Of a stretch of 54,896 nucleotides of DNA, positions 42,220 to 48,764 are shown piece by piece. The notes beneath the pieces were generated by a model that saw only the letters and a list, made by a program, of their open reading frames with translations, did not search any database and was not told the origin of the DNA. Position 1 is the first letter of the stretch; each line of letters opens with the position of its first letter. The stretch covers positions 1 through 54,896 of the forward strand of contig JALSJJ010000168.1 in the NCBI GenBank assembly GCA_026989375.1, read 5' to 3'. The translations under genes and the position numbers were made by a program. This DNA is from Rhodothermus sp. GTDB lineage: Bacteria; Bacteroidota; Rhodothermia; Rhodothermales; Rhodothermaceae.

Positions 42220-43113
42220 GTGACGGCCGCTACCCTCTTTGCCCTGGCGATTGCGCGGTTGTCGCCCAACGACTGGGCGACAGGAGGGTGGCTTGTACGC
42301 CACATAGATAGTCCTGAAGCCCTTTATGCCTACACTCCAGAGGCCCTTCAGGCCCATCTGGGCAATCGTCCTGAGGTTACGCGTCTGCTGGCTCAGCTCT
42401 TCAATGTTTCCTTCATGCGTCAGCTACTCACGCGGACCAGCACCGAACTGACCAGTCTGATCACCAGACGGGTACAGGTGCTGACGCCGCACGACGAAGC
42501 ATGGCCTGCTTCACTGGAAGCCCTGCCTCCACATCAGCGCCCTTTTCTGCTCTTTGCCTATGGCAATCTGGAGCTCCTGAAACAACCCACTGTGGCACTG
42601 CTGGCACGACCGCCTATCTCTGAGGCCGCCTACGAACGAGTCCAGGAGCTAACGCTGCACCTGGTTAAAGCTGGCTGCATCCCGATCACCGGCGCTCTCT
42701 CCGGCTTCGACGTAGCTCTACAAAAGCTCTGCCATAACGCGCCTCGTTCTCACCCGGCTATCATGATCGCTCACACCGGCTTGGCCCAACTCCTCCCCCC
42801 CATGCGTCCTGTGGCCACTGCCACCTTACGGGCCGGCGGCCTGTTGCTCTCCCCTTTTCTCATGGAACTGCGGCCAAACGAACGCCGAGACCGGCAGCGC
42901 GCTTTTATTCAGACAGCCCTGAGCCGGGCAACGGTCTTCATAGAACCTCGTCCGGATACGCCCGAACAGATCGCCCTTGACTGGGCTGTGCAGGCCCACC
43001 GGTCGGTCTTTGGCATCAGCACACGCACCATCCCAGAAGTACACCCCATTCGGGAATCGGTCGACTTCGAGTGGGTGGTGGAAGCGGCTCGCCACCCCTC
43101 TCCGAGCAACTGA
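42220..43113 (+). CDS. DprA-like DNA-processing protein
   Basis: A 297-residue protein. It contains a DprA/Smf-like Rossmann core: RVQVLTPHDEAWPASLEALPPHQRPFLLFAYGNLELL, then ELTLHLVKAGCIPITGALSGFDVALQK. DprA normally has GSR at the first strand turn and SGxAxGID. Here these read LARPPIS and TGALSGFD, so nucleotide or DNA binding may be altered. It is also shorter than most DprA, and no C-terminal winged helix is seen. Start is GTG at 42220 with no clear ribosome site. It ends 5 bases before the phosphomutase-like gene. It may be a diverged paralogue of the true dprA. Confidence 0.65.
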   Translation: MTAATLFALAIARLSPNDWATGGWLVRHIDSPEALYAYTPEALQAHLGNRPEVTRLLAQLFNVSFMRQLLTRTSTELTSLITRRVQVLTPHDEAWPASLEALPPHQRPFLLFAYGNLELLKQPTVALLARPPISEAAYERVQELTLHLVKAGCIPITGALSGFDVALQKLCHNAPRSHPAIMIAHTGLAQLLPPMRPVATATLRAGGLLLSPFLMELRPNERRDRQRAFIQTALSRATVFIEPRPDTPEQIALDWAVQAHRSVFGISTRTIPEVHPIRESVDFEWVVEAARHPSPSN

Positions 43114-43118
43114 AGCCC

Positions 43119-44045
43119 ATGGTGCTTCCACGCGTGCTGTTCATCTTTCTGGACGGGGTAGGGCTGGGGGAACCGCATCGGCACAATCCGCTGGCAGACG
43201 CCTGGTCTGGCCTGGCACAACTCACCTGCGGCCAGTCCTGGACAAGCCAGATCCATTGCTTCTGCAGGCCACACCATGTATTCCGCGCACTGGACACCAC
43301 CCTGGGCCTACCCGGCCTACCACAGAGCGGCACCGGACAGACCGCTCTGCTGACAGGCTTTAACGCACCACGCATTGCAGGCCGCCACTACGGCCCCTAT
43401 GCGCATTCCCGGACCCGTTCCGTGTTGGCCCGCTACAACATCTTTCGCCGGCTGAAAGACTACGGTCGTTCCGTAGCACTCGCCAACGCTTACCCACCTC
43501 CCTTCTTCGAACAGGCCCGGCAACGCAATCGCTGGAGTGTCACTACCCGTTGCTGTCAGGAGACCGGCGTCCGACTCCGGACGCTGGACGATCTGGCCCG
43601 TGGCGAAGCCCTTGCCGCTGATCTGACAGGCCAACGCCTGCACGAAGCCGGCTTTCCGGTTACCCCGCTTGACGAAACCAGCGCTGCCTACAACCTGATC
43701 AGACTGGCTCAGCAGTATGACTTTACCTTTTTCGAATACTTTCTGACAGACTATGCCGGTCACAGCCAGGATCTGAACCAGGCCCGGCAGGTACTGGCCT
43801 CACTGGATCGATTCTTCACAGAACTGCTTTCGCTGCTCAATCCTGCCCGCTATCTGCTCCTCATCACCAGCGATCACGGCAACCTGGAAGACCTGCGCGT
43901 GCGCACGCATACACGCAACCCGGTGCCGCTCATCGCCTATGGACGCGGGGCCATGGCCTTTCGCCATGCCCGTGACCTGCGGGACGTAACCCCCATGATC
44001 GTTACCCTGCTGGCCCCCCACGCTACTCCATGTCCCGAGCCATAG
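43119..44045 (+). CDS. Alkaline-phosphatase/phosphoglycerate-mutase superfamily metalloenzyme
   Basis: About 308 residues. It has the metal-binding start FLDGVGLGEP, the nucleophile segment LPQSGTGQTALLTGFNAP (Ser or Thr), EYFLTDYAGHSQDLNQAR and DHGNLEDLRVRTHTRNPVPLI, which carry the second metal site. These features match the superfamily of cofactor-independent phosphoglycerate mutase, phosphopentomutase and related phosphatases. It is shorter than iPGM, which has an inserted domain, so a phosphatase-like or phosphomutase-like function is possible and the substrate is open. The ATG is 5 bases past the dprA-like stop. The last 23 bases overlap the convergent S46 gene. Confidence 0.8.
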   Translation: MVLPRVLFIFLDGVGLGEPHRHNPLADAWSGLAQLTCGQSWTSQIHCFCRPHHVFRALDTTLGLPGLPQSGTGQTALLTGFNAPRIAGRHYGPYAHSRTRSVLARYNIFRRLKDYGRSVALANAYPPPFFEQARQRNRWSVTTRCCQETGVRLRTLDDLARGEALAADLTGQRLHEAGFPVTPLDETSAAYNLIRLAQQYDFTFFEYFLTDYAGHSQDLNQARQVLASLDRFFTELLSLLNPARYLLLITSDHGNLEDLRVRTHTRNPVPLIAYGRGAMAFRHARDLRDVTPMIVTLLAPHATPCPEP

Positions 44046-46296
44046 CTGTCCCAACGGCCGTGTCTTCAGGTACCAACGCACCGGTCGTCAGCTCTACCAC
44101 CAGCCGGTCGGCATGGTAAAGGTCGCGCAGCGCTTCAAGCACGCCTCGGCTATCGACGGCCACAGCACGCATTCCACGATCGGGCATGTAGATGTAGGTG
44201 CCTGCCAGGCCTTCAATGTTGCTGTCGAAAACCACCCCGACTAATTGCAGATGCTGGTCGATCAACGCCGAACCGGAGCTGCCTCCCGCAATGTCGGTGC
44301 TGGCCACCAGATTGAGCGGGGTAGTCCGCTCAAACGCCTTGTCTGGCGTCAACCATCGGGCCGGCAGGGTCCAGCTACTTCGCCCACGAAAGCTGTAAAA
44401 ACGATCATACATGCCGAAGAATGTGGTGAAGGGTGGCGCCTGCGTTCCGTTGTACGAATAGCCTTCAACACGGCCATCGGCAATGCGAAGCGTGCCGGTG
44501 CCATCGGGCGGTACCGTTCGACCGTAAACGGCAAATCGTAGAGCCGCCAGCCGGGCATTCAGAAAGCGCTCGCGGGCTTCAAACTGATCGAGCTGCTGAC
44601 CGAGCGTAAAGTACAGGGGACCCAGCACTTCGATCACCGGAACCGATGCATCGCCACTGTTCAGATATCCTTCGCGCAGCAACCGCGCAAAGGCTACCGA
44701 GTCTTTCAGCGCGGTACGCGCCACCAGATCACGGGCAACGTCAGCAGGTGATCGGTCCCCCAGTAGCCGTTGCACACTCGGATGCTGCGATCCCAGGTAA
44801 TCGTGCAATTCTTCCAGTCGGGCTGTGATGTAGCCTACCTCGACCGAGTCCGGCCAGTCTCGGATTCTAAGCGCCTCCTGACGCAACCTTTCCAGTCGAG
44901 CGCCCACAATTCCGCGCTGACGCATCAGGTCGTGTGCATAGCCAAAAAGGGCACGCAGCAAGATATGTGAGCTCAGGAGGGTGCTTGTACCAAAAAACTG
45001 AAAGGCAGCCGTCTGTGGTGCAGCCGCTGCTTTGCTACGCTGCAGCGCTTCGAGTTGCATAAATACGTTACCAAAGGAATTGCGTAGCGAGTCGTTGGCC
45101 ATCATACGGTCACGCAGCGCCTGCTCGGCCGCCCGCTTACGGGCCAGTAGGTACGGATCCCGCAATCCCTGTAGCTGCCCCTTCGTTGCCTTGATCATGT
45201 TTTTCAGGGCAAAGTACACGCTACGCAGCCCGTAGATGTTGGCCGAATCGGGTTGCTGGCGGATGTAGCGCTCCAGAATCTGTGCCCGGCGCTCCAGCAG
45301 TCTGAGCCGTTGCGGCAGCGTATAGTCGCGTTCGAATTCGAGCTGGCTCACGGTCAGATGACGCTGGGTAGCACCGGGATTGCCCACAGCAAAGACGAGC
45401 TGCCCCCGTCGGGCTCCTTCAGTACTCCAGCGGAAATACCAGGGACTTTTCAGCGGCTGCCCGTCGGCCCCGTAGATGCGCAGGAAGCTGACGTCCAGGC
45501 TATAACGTGGATACGTAAAATTATCGAAATCCCCCCCGAAGTAGCCAACACGCAGCTCAGGCGTCATGACCAGGCGCACGTCATGGTAGCGCCGCCAGAT
45601 ATAGGCGGTATAGCGGGCGCCATGATAGAGCGGTACAATTTCCACGTGCAGTGTTGTGTCGCGGTCCCGAACCTCCGCTTCGAGCTGCTGTTTGAGCCGC
45701 TCCAGGCGGCGGTTGCGCAGGCGCTCGCGCTCCACATCGTCGCGGATTTCCTCCAGGCCACGCACGATCTGCTCCGTGACGTCGCGTGCTTCCAGGAGCT
45801 GCTCAGCATACAGGCCCGGCAAGCGTCGTTCTTCCTGCAGCGAGTCGGCATAGAAACCCTCCTCCAGCAACGCCTCGCCCGGTCGGTCGATCAGGTCCAG
45901 GCTTTCCCAGGTACAATGATGATTTGTTACAACCAGGCCATGCGGCGAAACGAAGGCGCCGGAACAACGCCCGCTTTCAAAAACCAGCCGGAGCACTCCT
46001 CGCTGCGCATGCACCAACCAGGCTGAATCGGGGCGAAAACCATAGGTCGTTTCCCAGTAGTCCAGGGGCGGATTCTCAAAGGTCCAGAGCCGGCCGGTGT
46101 CGAACCGTCCAGCCCGCACGGTGTCAATTGCCGAGCGGAGGGGCAGCGTCGCTGCTTGTCTGACTGCTGTAGTTTCGGCTTCAGTCACAAGCGGCGGCAC
46201 ATCGGCCAGCCGGGCCGTTTCACGCGGTCCGGCACACCGTAGGCTCAGCACCCCCAGCGCCAGGATCCCTCCGGCAATCCAGCGGCAACGTATCAT
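44023..46296 (-). CDS. S46 family dipeptidyl-peptidase (paralogue A)
   Basis: A 757-residue peptidase that cleaves dipeptides from peptide N-termini, active in the periplasm or on the outer membrane. The N-terminus is a hydrophobic leader ending in SLRCAG, not a standard lipobox. The catalytic His is in LVVTNHHC (125-128), and the nucleophile Ser674 is in GGSSGSAL. The residue 18 positions after the Ser, which sets specificity (Gly in DPP7, Arg in DPP11), is Ser692 (VVFDSNIE). Its ATG overlaps the stop of paralogue B by 4 bases, so the two form an operon. Confidence 0.92.
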   Translation of the reverse strand: MIRCRWIAGGILALGVLSLRCAGPRETARLADVPPLVTEAETTAVRQAATLPLRSAIDTVRAGRFDTGRLWTFENPPLDYWETTYGFRPDSAWLVHAQRGVLRLVFESGRCSGAFVSPHGLVVTNHHCTWESLDLIDRPGEALLEEGFYADSLQEERRLPGLYAEQLLEARDVTEQIVRGLEEIRDDVERERLRNRRLERLKQQLEAEVRDRDTTLHVEIVPLYHGARYTAYIWRRYHDVRLVMTPELRVGYFGGDFDNFTYPRYSLDVSFLRIYGADGQPLKSPWYFRWSTEGARRGQLVFAVGNPGATQRHLTVSQLEFERDYTLPQRLRLLERRAQILERYIRQQPDSANIYGLRSVYFALKNMIKATKGQLQGLRDPYLLARKRAAEQALRDRMMANDSLRNSFGNVFMQLEALQRSKAAAAPQTAAFQFFGTSTLLSSHILLRALFGYAHDLMRQRGIVGARLERLRQEALRIRDWPDSVEVGYITARLEELHDYLGSQHPSVQRLLGDRSPADVARDLVARTALKDSVAFARLLREGYLNSGDASVPVIEVLGPLYFTLGQQLDQFEARERFLNARLAALRFAVYGRTVPPDGTGTLRIADGRVEGYSYNGTQAPPFTTFFGMYDRFYSFRGRSSWTLPARWLTPDKAFERTTPLNLVASTDIAGGSSGSALIDQHLQLVGVVFDSNIEGLAGTYIYMPDRGMRAVAVDSRGVLEALRDLYHADRLVVELTTGALVPEDTAVGTAMARDME

Positions 46297-48554
46297 TGTC
46301 CGTCTCCCTGGTTCATCAGCGCATCGGCTTCCTCCTCGGAGCGCACCAGCCGGCCCGTTGTCAACTCCAGTACCAGCCGATCAGCGTCATAGATCTCGTC
46401 TAACGCTTCCAGAATACCCCGCACATCAACGGCCACGGCCCGCATTCCGCGATCGGGCATATAGATGTAGTCGGCCGGCAGACTTTCGATGTTGCCGTCG
46501 AAAATAAGTCCGACCACTTCCAGCTTCGGGTTAATCACTGGCGATCCCGAGTTGCCGCCGATGATATCGGCCGTCGCCACAAAGTTAAGTGGCGTGGCGC
46601 GGTCAAACGTTTCCGGCGGATGCAGCCAGCGCTCGGGCAGATCCCAATCGGTGCCTGGTCCAAAGGCATAGTAACGCTCATAAAGACCATAGAAGGTGGT
46701 GTACGGCGGGGCCAGCGTGCCATTATACATATACCCTTTTACGACGCCATCGGCAATACGCAGCGAAAAAGTAGCATCGGGTGGCACCGACGTACCGTAC
46801 ACCTCGTAGCGGGCACGCCCGAGCTGGCTGGCAATCTCTTGCTGCTGCGCCGAAATACCCGCCCAGGCACTCTGAAAGGCCTGAAAACGTGGCCAGACGG
46901 TCGCCACCAGCTGGACGGCCGGATCCTCCATGGTCAGCGTGCCATCTGCCAGCGCCTGCGCCGTCCGTGATGAATCACTCAGCACAGTATTCTCGATGAT
47001 ATGACGGGCTACTGCCTCCGGCGTGCGCCCCTGCAGGAGCTGGCTGACTAGACGACTGTCTTCGCCCAAATAGCGGATGAAGTCCTCCAGACGCGCCTTC
47101 AGGTAGCGCCACTGCACCGGTCTGGGCTGGTCCGCTATCGCAAGGATCTCATCGCGCAGCTCGGCCAGTTGCGCGCCTGAGGCGCCTGCCTGCTGACGAT
47201 TCAGATAGATATAGGCCAGGATAGCCCGGCGAATCGCCGTGCTGCTGAGGCTACTGTTCGGGTTAAAAGCCAGGAAAGCCTGGAGCTCGGCGGCATATTC
47301 CCGTTGCTGTGAGACCAGTTCGGCCATGCGTTCAAAGAGCGGATCGTACGTGCGAGCCAGCGTCGAGTCGCGGCGTAGCGCCTCGCGGAAACGCTGCTCG
47401 GCATCCCGGCGGCGGGCAAGGATATAGGGATCACGCAACCCCTTGACCCGCCCGGTATAGAGCTTATCGGCATTGCTGAGCGAAAAGATCTCGTTACGGA
47501 TCTTCTCACGTTCCGGCCCCTCAGGCAATTCCCTCAGGTAGTCCTGCAGCGCAGCCATACGCGTCTGAATGAGCCGTAGAATAGCAGGTTCAAGTACATC
47601 GCGCCGGAATTCGAGCTGCGCAACGGTCTGCAGGCGGCTGGTCGAGCCCGGATTACCGATCACAAACACCACGTCGCCTTCTTCGACCCCTTCCCGACTC
47701 CAGCGGAAGTAATGGGGCGTGCGCAGCGGCTCGCCGTTTTCATCATAGATGCGGAAGAACGTCACGTCGAGCGCATAGCGTGGATAGGTGAAGTTGTCCG
47801 GATCACCGCCAAAGTAGCCCAGTTGCAGCTCGGGGGCCATCACCAGCCGCATGTCACGGTAGCGCTTGAAGATGTAGGCCGAGTACTTGGCCCCGTTGTA
47901 GAGCGAAATCACTTCGACGACGTAGCCGGCTTCTTCGCCCCCTTTTTCCTCCAGCAGTCGTTGCTCAATCGTCTCCATAGCCTGCTGGCGGGCCATAGCC
48001 CGTTCGGCGTCCGTCTCAGCCCCCTGCAGCGCGGCGTACACCTCGTCGGTTACATCGCGGATTTCGATGAGTTGGTCGGCATAGTAATCTTCAACGTGGC
48101 GTTCTTCTTCGAGGGAGCGCGCATAGAAACCGTTGTCCAGCAGGTTCTCTCCAGGACGACTGACAGCGACCACAGCCTCCCGACCGCAATGGTGGTTCGT
48201 CATCACCAACCCATTGGGCGAAACAAACGAAGCCGAGCAGCCCGGAATGCGCAAAGCGCCCAACCGCGCTTCTCGGAACCAGGCCGAATCAGGTCGAAAA
48301 CCATAGGCTTCCGCAAAATAATCGATCGGCGGATCCTCGAACGTCCACATCTTACCGTTATCAAAACGGCCAGCCCGTACGGTATCCAGTGCCAGGGTCA
48401 CCTGGGGCGACAGCGGAGCCTCAGGTACCGTAGGTGGAGGCGGCGGTACCGGTACCGGGGACGCCGGCTGCGTTGTCGCAGTAGGCTGACTTGTCGCACA
48501 TCCAACAAGCAGCACCAGGCTGAAGGGTAACAGGAAGCGTACAACTGACTTCAT
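46293..48554 (-). CDS. S46 family dipeptidyl-peptidase (paralogue B, DPP7-like)
   Basis: A 753-residue lipoprotein: signal MKSVVRFLLPFSLVLLVGC with a lipobox (LLVGC, Cys19), then a Pro-rich spacer (PVPVPPPPPTVPEAP). The catalytic His is in LVMTNHHCG, and Ser in GGNSGSPVI. The position 18 residues after the nucleophile is Gly (LIFDGNIE), as in DPP7, which prefers hydrophobic residues at P1. ATG 48554 is chosen; the open frame continues through the tRNA on the other strand and cannot be coding there. It is first in the tandem S46 operon. Confidence 0.94.
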   Translation of the reverse strand: MKSVVRFLLPFSLVLLVGCATSQPTATTQPASPVPVPPPPPTVPEAPLSPQVTLALDTVRAGRFDNGKMWTFEDPPIDYFAEAYGFRPDSAWFREARLGALRIPGCSASFVSPNGLVMTNHHCGREAVVAVSRPGENLLDNGFYARSLEEERHVEDYYADQLIEIRDVTDEVYAALQGAETDAERAMARQQAMETIEQRLLEEKGGEEAGYVVEVISLYNGAKYSAYIFKRYRDMRLVMAPELQLGYFGGDPDNFTYPRYALDVTFFRIYDENGEPLRTPHYFRWSREGVEEGDVVFVIGNPGSTSRLQTVAQLEFRRDVLEPAILRLIQTRMAALQDYLRELPEGPEREKIRNEIFSLSNADKLYTGRVKGLRDPYILARRRDAEQRFREALRRDSTLARTYDPLFERMAELVSQQREYAAELQAFLAFNPNSSLSSTAIRRAILAYIYLNRQQAGASGAQLAELRDEILAIADQPRPVQWRYLKARLEDFIRYLGEDSRLVSQLLQGRTPEAVARHIIENTVLSDSSRTAQALADGTLTMEDPAVQLVATVWPRFQAFQSAWAGISAQQQEIASQLGRARYEVYGTSVPPDATFSLRIADGVVKGYMYNGTLAPPYTTFYGLYERYYAFGPGTDWDLPERWLHPPETFDRATPLNFVATADIIGGNSGSPVINPKLEVVGLIFDGNIESLPADYIYMPDRGMRAVAVDVRGILEALDEIYDADRLVLELTTGRLVRSEEEADALMNQGDGQ

Positions 48555-48673: not shown

Positions 48674-48757
48674 GCGAAAGTGGCGGAACTGGTAGACGCG
48701 CGAGACTTAGGATCTCGTGGCCGCAAGGCCGTGGGGGTTCGAGTCCCCCCTTTCGCA
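48674..48757 (+). tRNA. tRNA-Leu (anticodon TAG)
   Basis: An 84-base class II tRNA with a long variable arm. The acceptor stem GCGAAAG (48674-48680) pairs with CTTTCGC (48750-48756); the discriminator base is A. The anticodon stem-loop CGAGA-CTTAGGA-TCTCG holds TAG. The variable arm is TGGCCGCAAGGCCG, and the T-arm is GGGGGTTCGAGTCCCCC. CCA is not encoded. The TAG anticodon decodes CUA and CUG. Confidence 0.97.
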
Positions 48758-48764
48758 CAACTGC

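Follow-up and report, generated by a model that had tools for sequence, protein, structure and literature searches.

The classification of S46 peptidases with Arg or Ser at position 673 as DPP11 reportedly goes back to the original work of Rouf et al. 2013 and Nemoto et al. 2017, and a third S46 group, in Bacteroides and outside the simple DPP7/DPP11 split, is reported by Nemoto et al. 2017. The described enzymes with which new S46 members can be compared are DPP7/DAP BII, i.e., P. gingivalis DPP7, P. mexicana DAP BII and S. maltophilia SmDPP7, the Arg-type DPP11 of P. gingivalis (S46.002; 4xzy) and the Shewanella-type DPP11s that carry Ser at 673 (SpDPP11 Ser684, SmDPP11 Ser667).

By the published rule, Gly at 673 denotes a DPP7 and Arg or Ser a DPP11 (PMC8048996, PMC8041751). 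The Shewanella-type DPP11 with Ser673 prefers Glu at P1, and the only Ser673 enzymes of S46 with measured specificity prefer acidic P1 residues, Glu above all (PMC8048996, PMC8041751). Thr650 and Asn670 are conserved in DPP11s, and Ile and Ala take their places in DPP7s; SmDPP11 and SpDPP11 were the DPP11s with Ser that entered this comparison (PMC6753110). The S1 pocket is lined by Gly673 and Ser677 in SmDPP7 (PMC8041751) and by Arg673 and Gly677 in PgDPP11 (PMC6753110). Here we compare with these enzymes two tandem S46 genes, A and B, of Rhodothermus sp., using PgDPP11 numbering for positions of the family.

Results

The window, i.e., the whole stretch of 54,896 nucleotides that was analysed, contains A and B head to tail on the minus strand (Table 1), and they are the only two S46 genes in this Rhodothermus genome. 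Pfam Peptidase_S46 (PF10459) matched both proteins end to end (E 1.7e-170 for A, 1.8e-177 for B). The two share 48% identity over 687 residues, and the closest named relative, from a Rhodothermus MAG, shows 87% identity in A. Both miss the 1200-bit cut-off of the NCBIfam Dpp7 equivalog, a model built on a distant group (171 bits for A, 208.5 for B). The ATGA overlap of the two genes is an arrangement typical of translational coupling. The start of B was placed at the ATG because a longer GTG-start ORF extends into a tRNA-Leu gene (48674-48758, plus strand) located a short distance upstream of B. A convergent ORF (43071-44045) and A share 23 bases at their 3' ends (44023-44045). Since B has a clear lipobox (LLVGC) and the lipobox-like LSLRC of A, with Cys21 and an atypical Arg, aligns with LMTAC or LAAC at the same place in relatives, both are probably lipoproteins.

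Table 1. Window coordinates of the S46 gene pair and of its specificity codons
Feature	Position	Strand	Remark
Gene A, S46 peptidase, 757 aa	44023-46296	-	
Gene B, S46 peptidase, 753 aa	46293-48554	-	start ATG 48554, end 46293
ATGA overlap	46293-46296	-	B stop (TGA) and A start (ATG)
A Ser692 codon AGC	44221-44223	-	P1 position; computed 46296 - 3*691
A Gly696 codon GGC	44209-44211	-	PgDPP11 677, covaries with 673; computed 46296 - 3*695
B Gly687 codon GGC	46494-46496	-	P1 position; computed 48554 - 3*686

The initial annotation had credited both paralogues with the catalytic His and Ser, and the triads are in fact complete: the equivalents of the S46 reference residues His85-Asp227-Ser655 are His127-Asp268-Ser674 in A and His122-Asp263-Ser669 in B. 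Equivalents of Asn218, Asn333 and Asp672, which bind the N-terminal amine, are also present in both, so that A and B agree with the full-length DPP7/DAP BII enzymes in triad and in the Asn/Asn/Asp set, although they are distant from them in sequence. Trp219 of the characterised members is replaced by Phe in A, in B and in their whole clade of about 200 relatives, and Trp219 is not a defining residue of the S46 family as a whole. Purifying selection on both genes is strong (dN/dS of 0.06-0.07 in A), and since the residues of a dipeptidyl-peptidase are intact as well, A is very probably active. An AF2 model of A built on an alignment of five rows (pLDDT 50.5, below 50 in the catalytic domain) does not permit reading of the pocket. 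In S46 enzymes an alpha-helical domain separates the two halves of the catalytic domain; for A the model has helices at 316-591, predicted with moderate confidence.

Eighteen positions after the catalytic Ser, A has Ser692 and B has Gly687, in agreement with the initial reading of both ORFs. The same count in PgDPP11 leads from Ser655 to Arg673, and the register is therefore correct; moreover, the HMMER alignment to DAP BII (3woj) and 4y06 is ungapped from the nucleophile to 673, where 4y06 reads Arg. A location of Ser692 away from the P1-specificity site, named beforehand as the outcome that would undo the proposal, is thus unlikely, as judged from an ungapped alignment of sequences. Nor is Ser692 a sequencing accident, because Ser at 673 is retained in seven of seven Rhodothermus genomes and the dN/dS of A is low.

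The aligned S1 positions 650, 670, 673 and 677 are Ile669, Val689, Ser692 and Gly696 in A and Ile664, Ile684, Gly687 and Ser691 in B. With Gly673 and Ser677, B matches DPP7/DAP BII, and the early description of B as DPP7-like at the P1 position is borne out; Ile650 and a hydrophobic residue at 670 are common to DPP7/DAP BII and both paralogues, whereas Ser673 and Gly677 set A apart. The Arg-type DPP11 has the family, the triad and a small residue at 677 in common with A, but Arg673, Thr650 and Asn670 where A has Ser, Ile and Val. The Shewanella-type enzymes share Ser at 673 with A, yet by the published comparison they keep Thr650 and Asn670 (PMC6753110), and A has neither. None of the S1 positions aligned in A holds a basic residue. 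The Arg-or-Ser673 rule would file A as a DPP11; on the aligned residues it does not settle A, because DPP11s, including the Ser type, keep Thr650/Asn670 and A has Ile/Val.

We then aligned 299 S46 proteins, collected from plasmid records and from the phylum to which the window belongs. Ser673 of the Shewanella/Stenotrophomonas kind was looked for in the plasmid records, and only Gly types were present there. The proteins split into a Trp219 set, which holds the characterised enzymes, and a Phe219 clade, which holds A and B. Enzymes with Arg673 have Thr650 in 64/66 cases and Asn670 in 65/66 (50/52 and 51/52 in the Trp set, 14/14 and 14/14 in the Phe clade). The alignment of members with Ser at 673, proposed at the outset, yielded 47 active Ser673 enzymes, all from the Phe clade; every one has Ile650 and a hydrophobic 670, and Thr650 or Asn670 was found in none of the 47. 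As judged from these aligned columns, Ser673 in the Phe clade accompanies a DPP7-like and not a DPP11-like pocket. The nucleophile motif GGSSGSAL of A, contrasted at first with GGNSGSPV of B, is present, but GGSSGS is unlinked to Ser673 (17/47 Ser673 and 10/146 Gly673 enzymes); it does not follow 673 on the tree and was rejected as a specificity mark.

Position 677 behaves differently. In the Phe clade, Ser677 is found in 139 of 145 Gly673 types and in 0/47 Ser673 types, a swap of Gly673/Ser677 against Ser673/Ala-or-Gly677, and the contrast between types at 677 is the largest of any alignment column except 673 itself. On a tree from which the pocket columns had been left out, 673 and 677 changed jointly in nine of nine independent switches (p ~0.004, for one of seven columns tried), and none of the pocket columns 651, 654, 658, 670 and 680 switched jointly with 673. 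Arg673 types have a residue other than Ser at 677 in 14/14 cases in the Phe clade and 50/52 in the Trp set. Because Ser677 occurs in only 4/28 Gly673 enzymes of the Trp set, the strict swap is, in the proteins sampled, a property of the Phe clade. Such coupling would be expected if the 673 side chain faces the pocket next to 677, and it provides independent evidence for Ser692 as a pocket residue. A longer gene conversion between A and B was rejected as the cause, as the columns on either side, 670 and 680, do not change with them; a very short conversion tract is possible.

Most Ser types belong to one old lineage with weak support at its base (49), in which 45 of 65 members have Ser; it includes several reversions to Gly, and Ser was gained separately at least once outside it. 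A falls into an all-Ser Rhodothermus group, and Gly is found in the related proteins L138 and L168 of a neighbouring family. B is a member of the other lineage, near the Arg types of the Phe clade, with 57% identity to the Arg type L052. The tandem order of a B-like gene followed by an A-like gene on the same strand recurs across many families of the order. Among the 76 genomes sampled from the order, a Ser type is present in 45, an Arg type in 14 and both in 3, compared with ~8 expected (Fisher p 0.002), with the types clustered by family; for this reason co-occurrence was set aside as a test of acid specificity and is suggestive only. Ser673 and Gly673 forms stand side by side in 26/76 genomes, and Gly, Ser and Arg types occur all together in three.

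The survey also revealed a 14-member group with Arg673, Thr650 and Asn670 (L048, L052, L057, L094, L134 and nine others), apart from the classical DPP11s; because it nests in the Phe219 clade, the DPP11 pocket has apparently more than one evolutionary origin. In eight genomes of one genus (L118, L119, L180-L185), the gene directly upstream of an A-like one of the Ser type encodes a full-length S46 paralogue from which the catalytic His and Ser, together with amine-binding residues, have disappeared (e.g., Arg-Asp-Asn for His-Asp-Ser); here an S46 pseudoenzyme and an active S46 form a tandem. Further candidate pseudoenzymes are L310, L311 and L322 of the Trp219 set, from another family of the same class, with the broken triads NDT, RDS and YSR. 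Three consecutive S46 genes, all with Gly673, are present in several genomes that belong to one family of the phylum (L098, L101, L102, L105).

Discussion

We hypothesize that A and B are made from one two-gene transcript and act as exported, probably lipid-anchored S46 dipeptidyl aminopeptidases. The conserved residues suggest that the equivalents of Asn218, Asn333 and Asp672 would hold the free N-terminus of a peptide, which would be cut after its second residue by a chymotrypsin-type Ser-His-Asp triad. The S1 pocket of B would be of the DPP7 type and accept bulky hydrophobic residues at P1. A would have a third type of pocket, with DPP7-like hydrophobic walls (Ile650, Val670) and the wall hydroxyl shifted from 677 to 673. 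Because this single hydroxyl lies in an otherwise hydrophobic, uncharged pocket, A would most likely release dipeptides with an uncharged P1 residue, smaller or more polar than those of B, and the pair would cover more sequences than either enzyme alone.

On the aligned residues, A represents a third class of S1 pocket in S46, conserved and active-looking; that its P1 preference is uncharged and shifted from that of B is the likeliest reading, with chances that seem to us about even. We propose more tentatively that A typifies a third S46 specificity class (Ser673, Ala/Gly677, Ile650, hydrophobic 670), widespread in Rhodothermales, for which P1 would be neither bulky hydrophobic nor acidic. 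The initial annotation had taken Ser at this position to be neither DPP7 nor DPP11 and had suggested a new P1 preference for A. The former is contradicted by the published rule, which already lists Ser673 as DPP11 of the Shewanella type with its preference for Glu, and Ser alone is no argument for the latter; without Thr650/Asn670, however, the pocket of A fits neither class, and to this extent the suggestion holds. A literature search found no biochemical data for members of the Phe clade, whose sequences lie far from those of the solved enzymes.

The main alternative is that A is a Shewanella-type DPP11, in which Ser673 selects Glu (and Asp) at P1, and that A and B form a DPP11/DPP7 pair as in many Gram-negatives. 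It draws on the published rule and on Glu preference as the only measured behaviour of Ser673 enzymes; the genomes with Ser and Arg types are also largely complementary in the order, as if these enzymes could be mutual substitutes, although lineage structure may explain this. We nevertheless consider it rather unlikely, as A and the 47/47 Ser673 enzymes are without the Thr650/Asn670 pair that characterised Ser-type DPP11s keep, no basic residue appears at the aligned S1 positions of A, and three genomes hold Gly, Ser and Arg types together.

The exchange of Ser between 673 and 677 could also be volume-neutral, leaving A as a second DPP7-like enzyme with B-like hydrophobic P1 choice and with its divergence elsewhere (P2, partner or regulation). 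The hydrophobic walls Ile650 and Val670 are indeed kept, the swap is reciprocal, many columns of the alpha-helical domain differ between A and B, and the repeated re-emergence of Gly673 within the Ser clade suggests a small functional cost. The coexistence of Ser673 and Gly673 forms in about a third of the sampled genomes and the role of 673 as the known determinant of P1 choice make this improbable. That A is an inactive or degenerate copy, for which the dead S46 paralogues that neighbour A-like genes in a genus of the order and the Ser in place of Asn before the nucleophile could be cited, is highly implausible with the triad and amine-binding residues intact, a dN/dS of ~0.07 and GGSSGS also carried by otherwise ordinary Gly673 enzymes.

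The reading of A as a third type of S1 pocket bears on how S46 sequences are classified. The one-residue 673 rule would call A a DPP11; if the comparison of pockets made here holds, an entire clade is an exception to this rule, and 673 needs to be read together with 650, 670 and 677. As thermophilic proteins, A and B may express and crystallise well. The repeated swap between Gly673/Ser677 and Ser673/Ala-or-Gly677 offers a natural experiment on how S46 peptidases change their choice of substrate.
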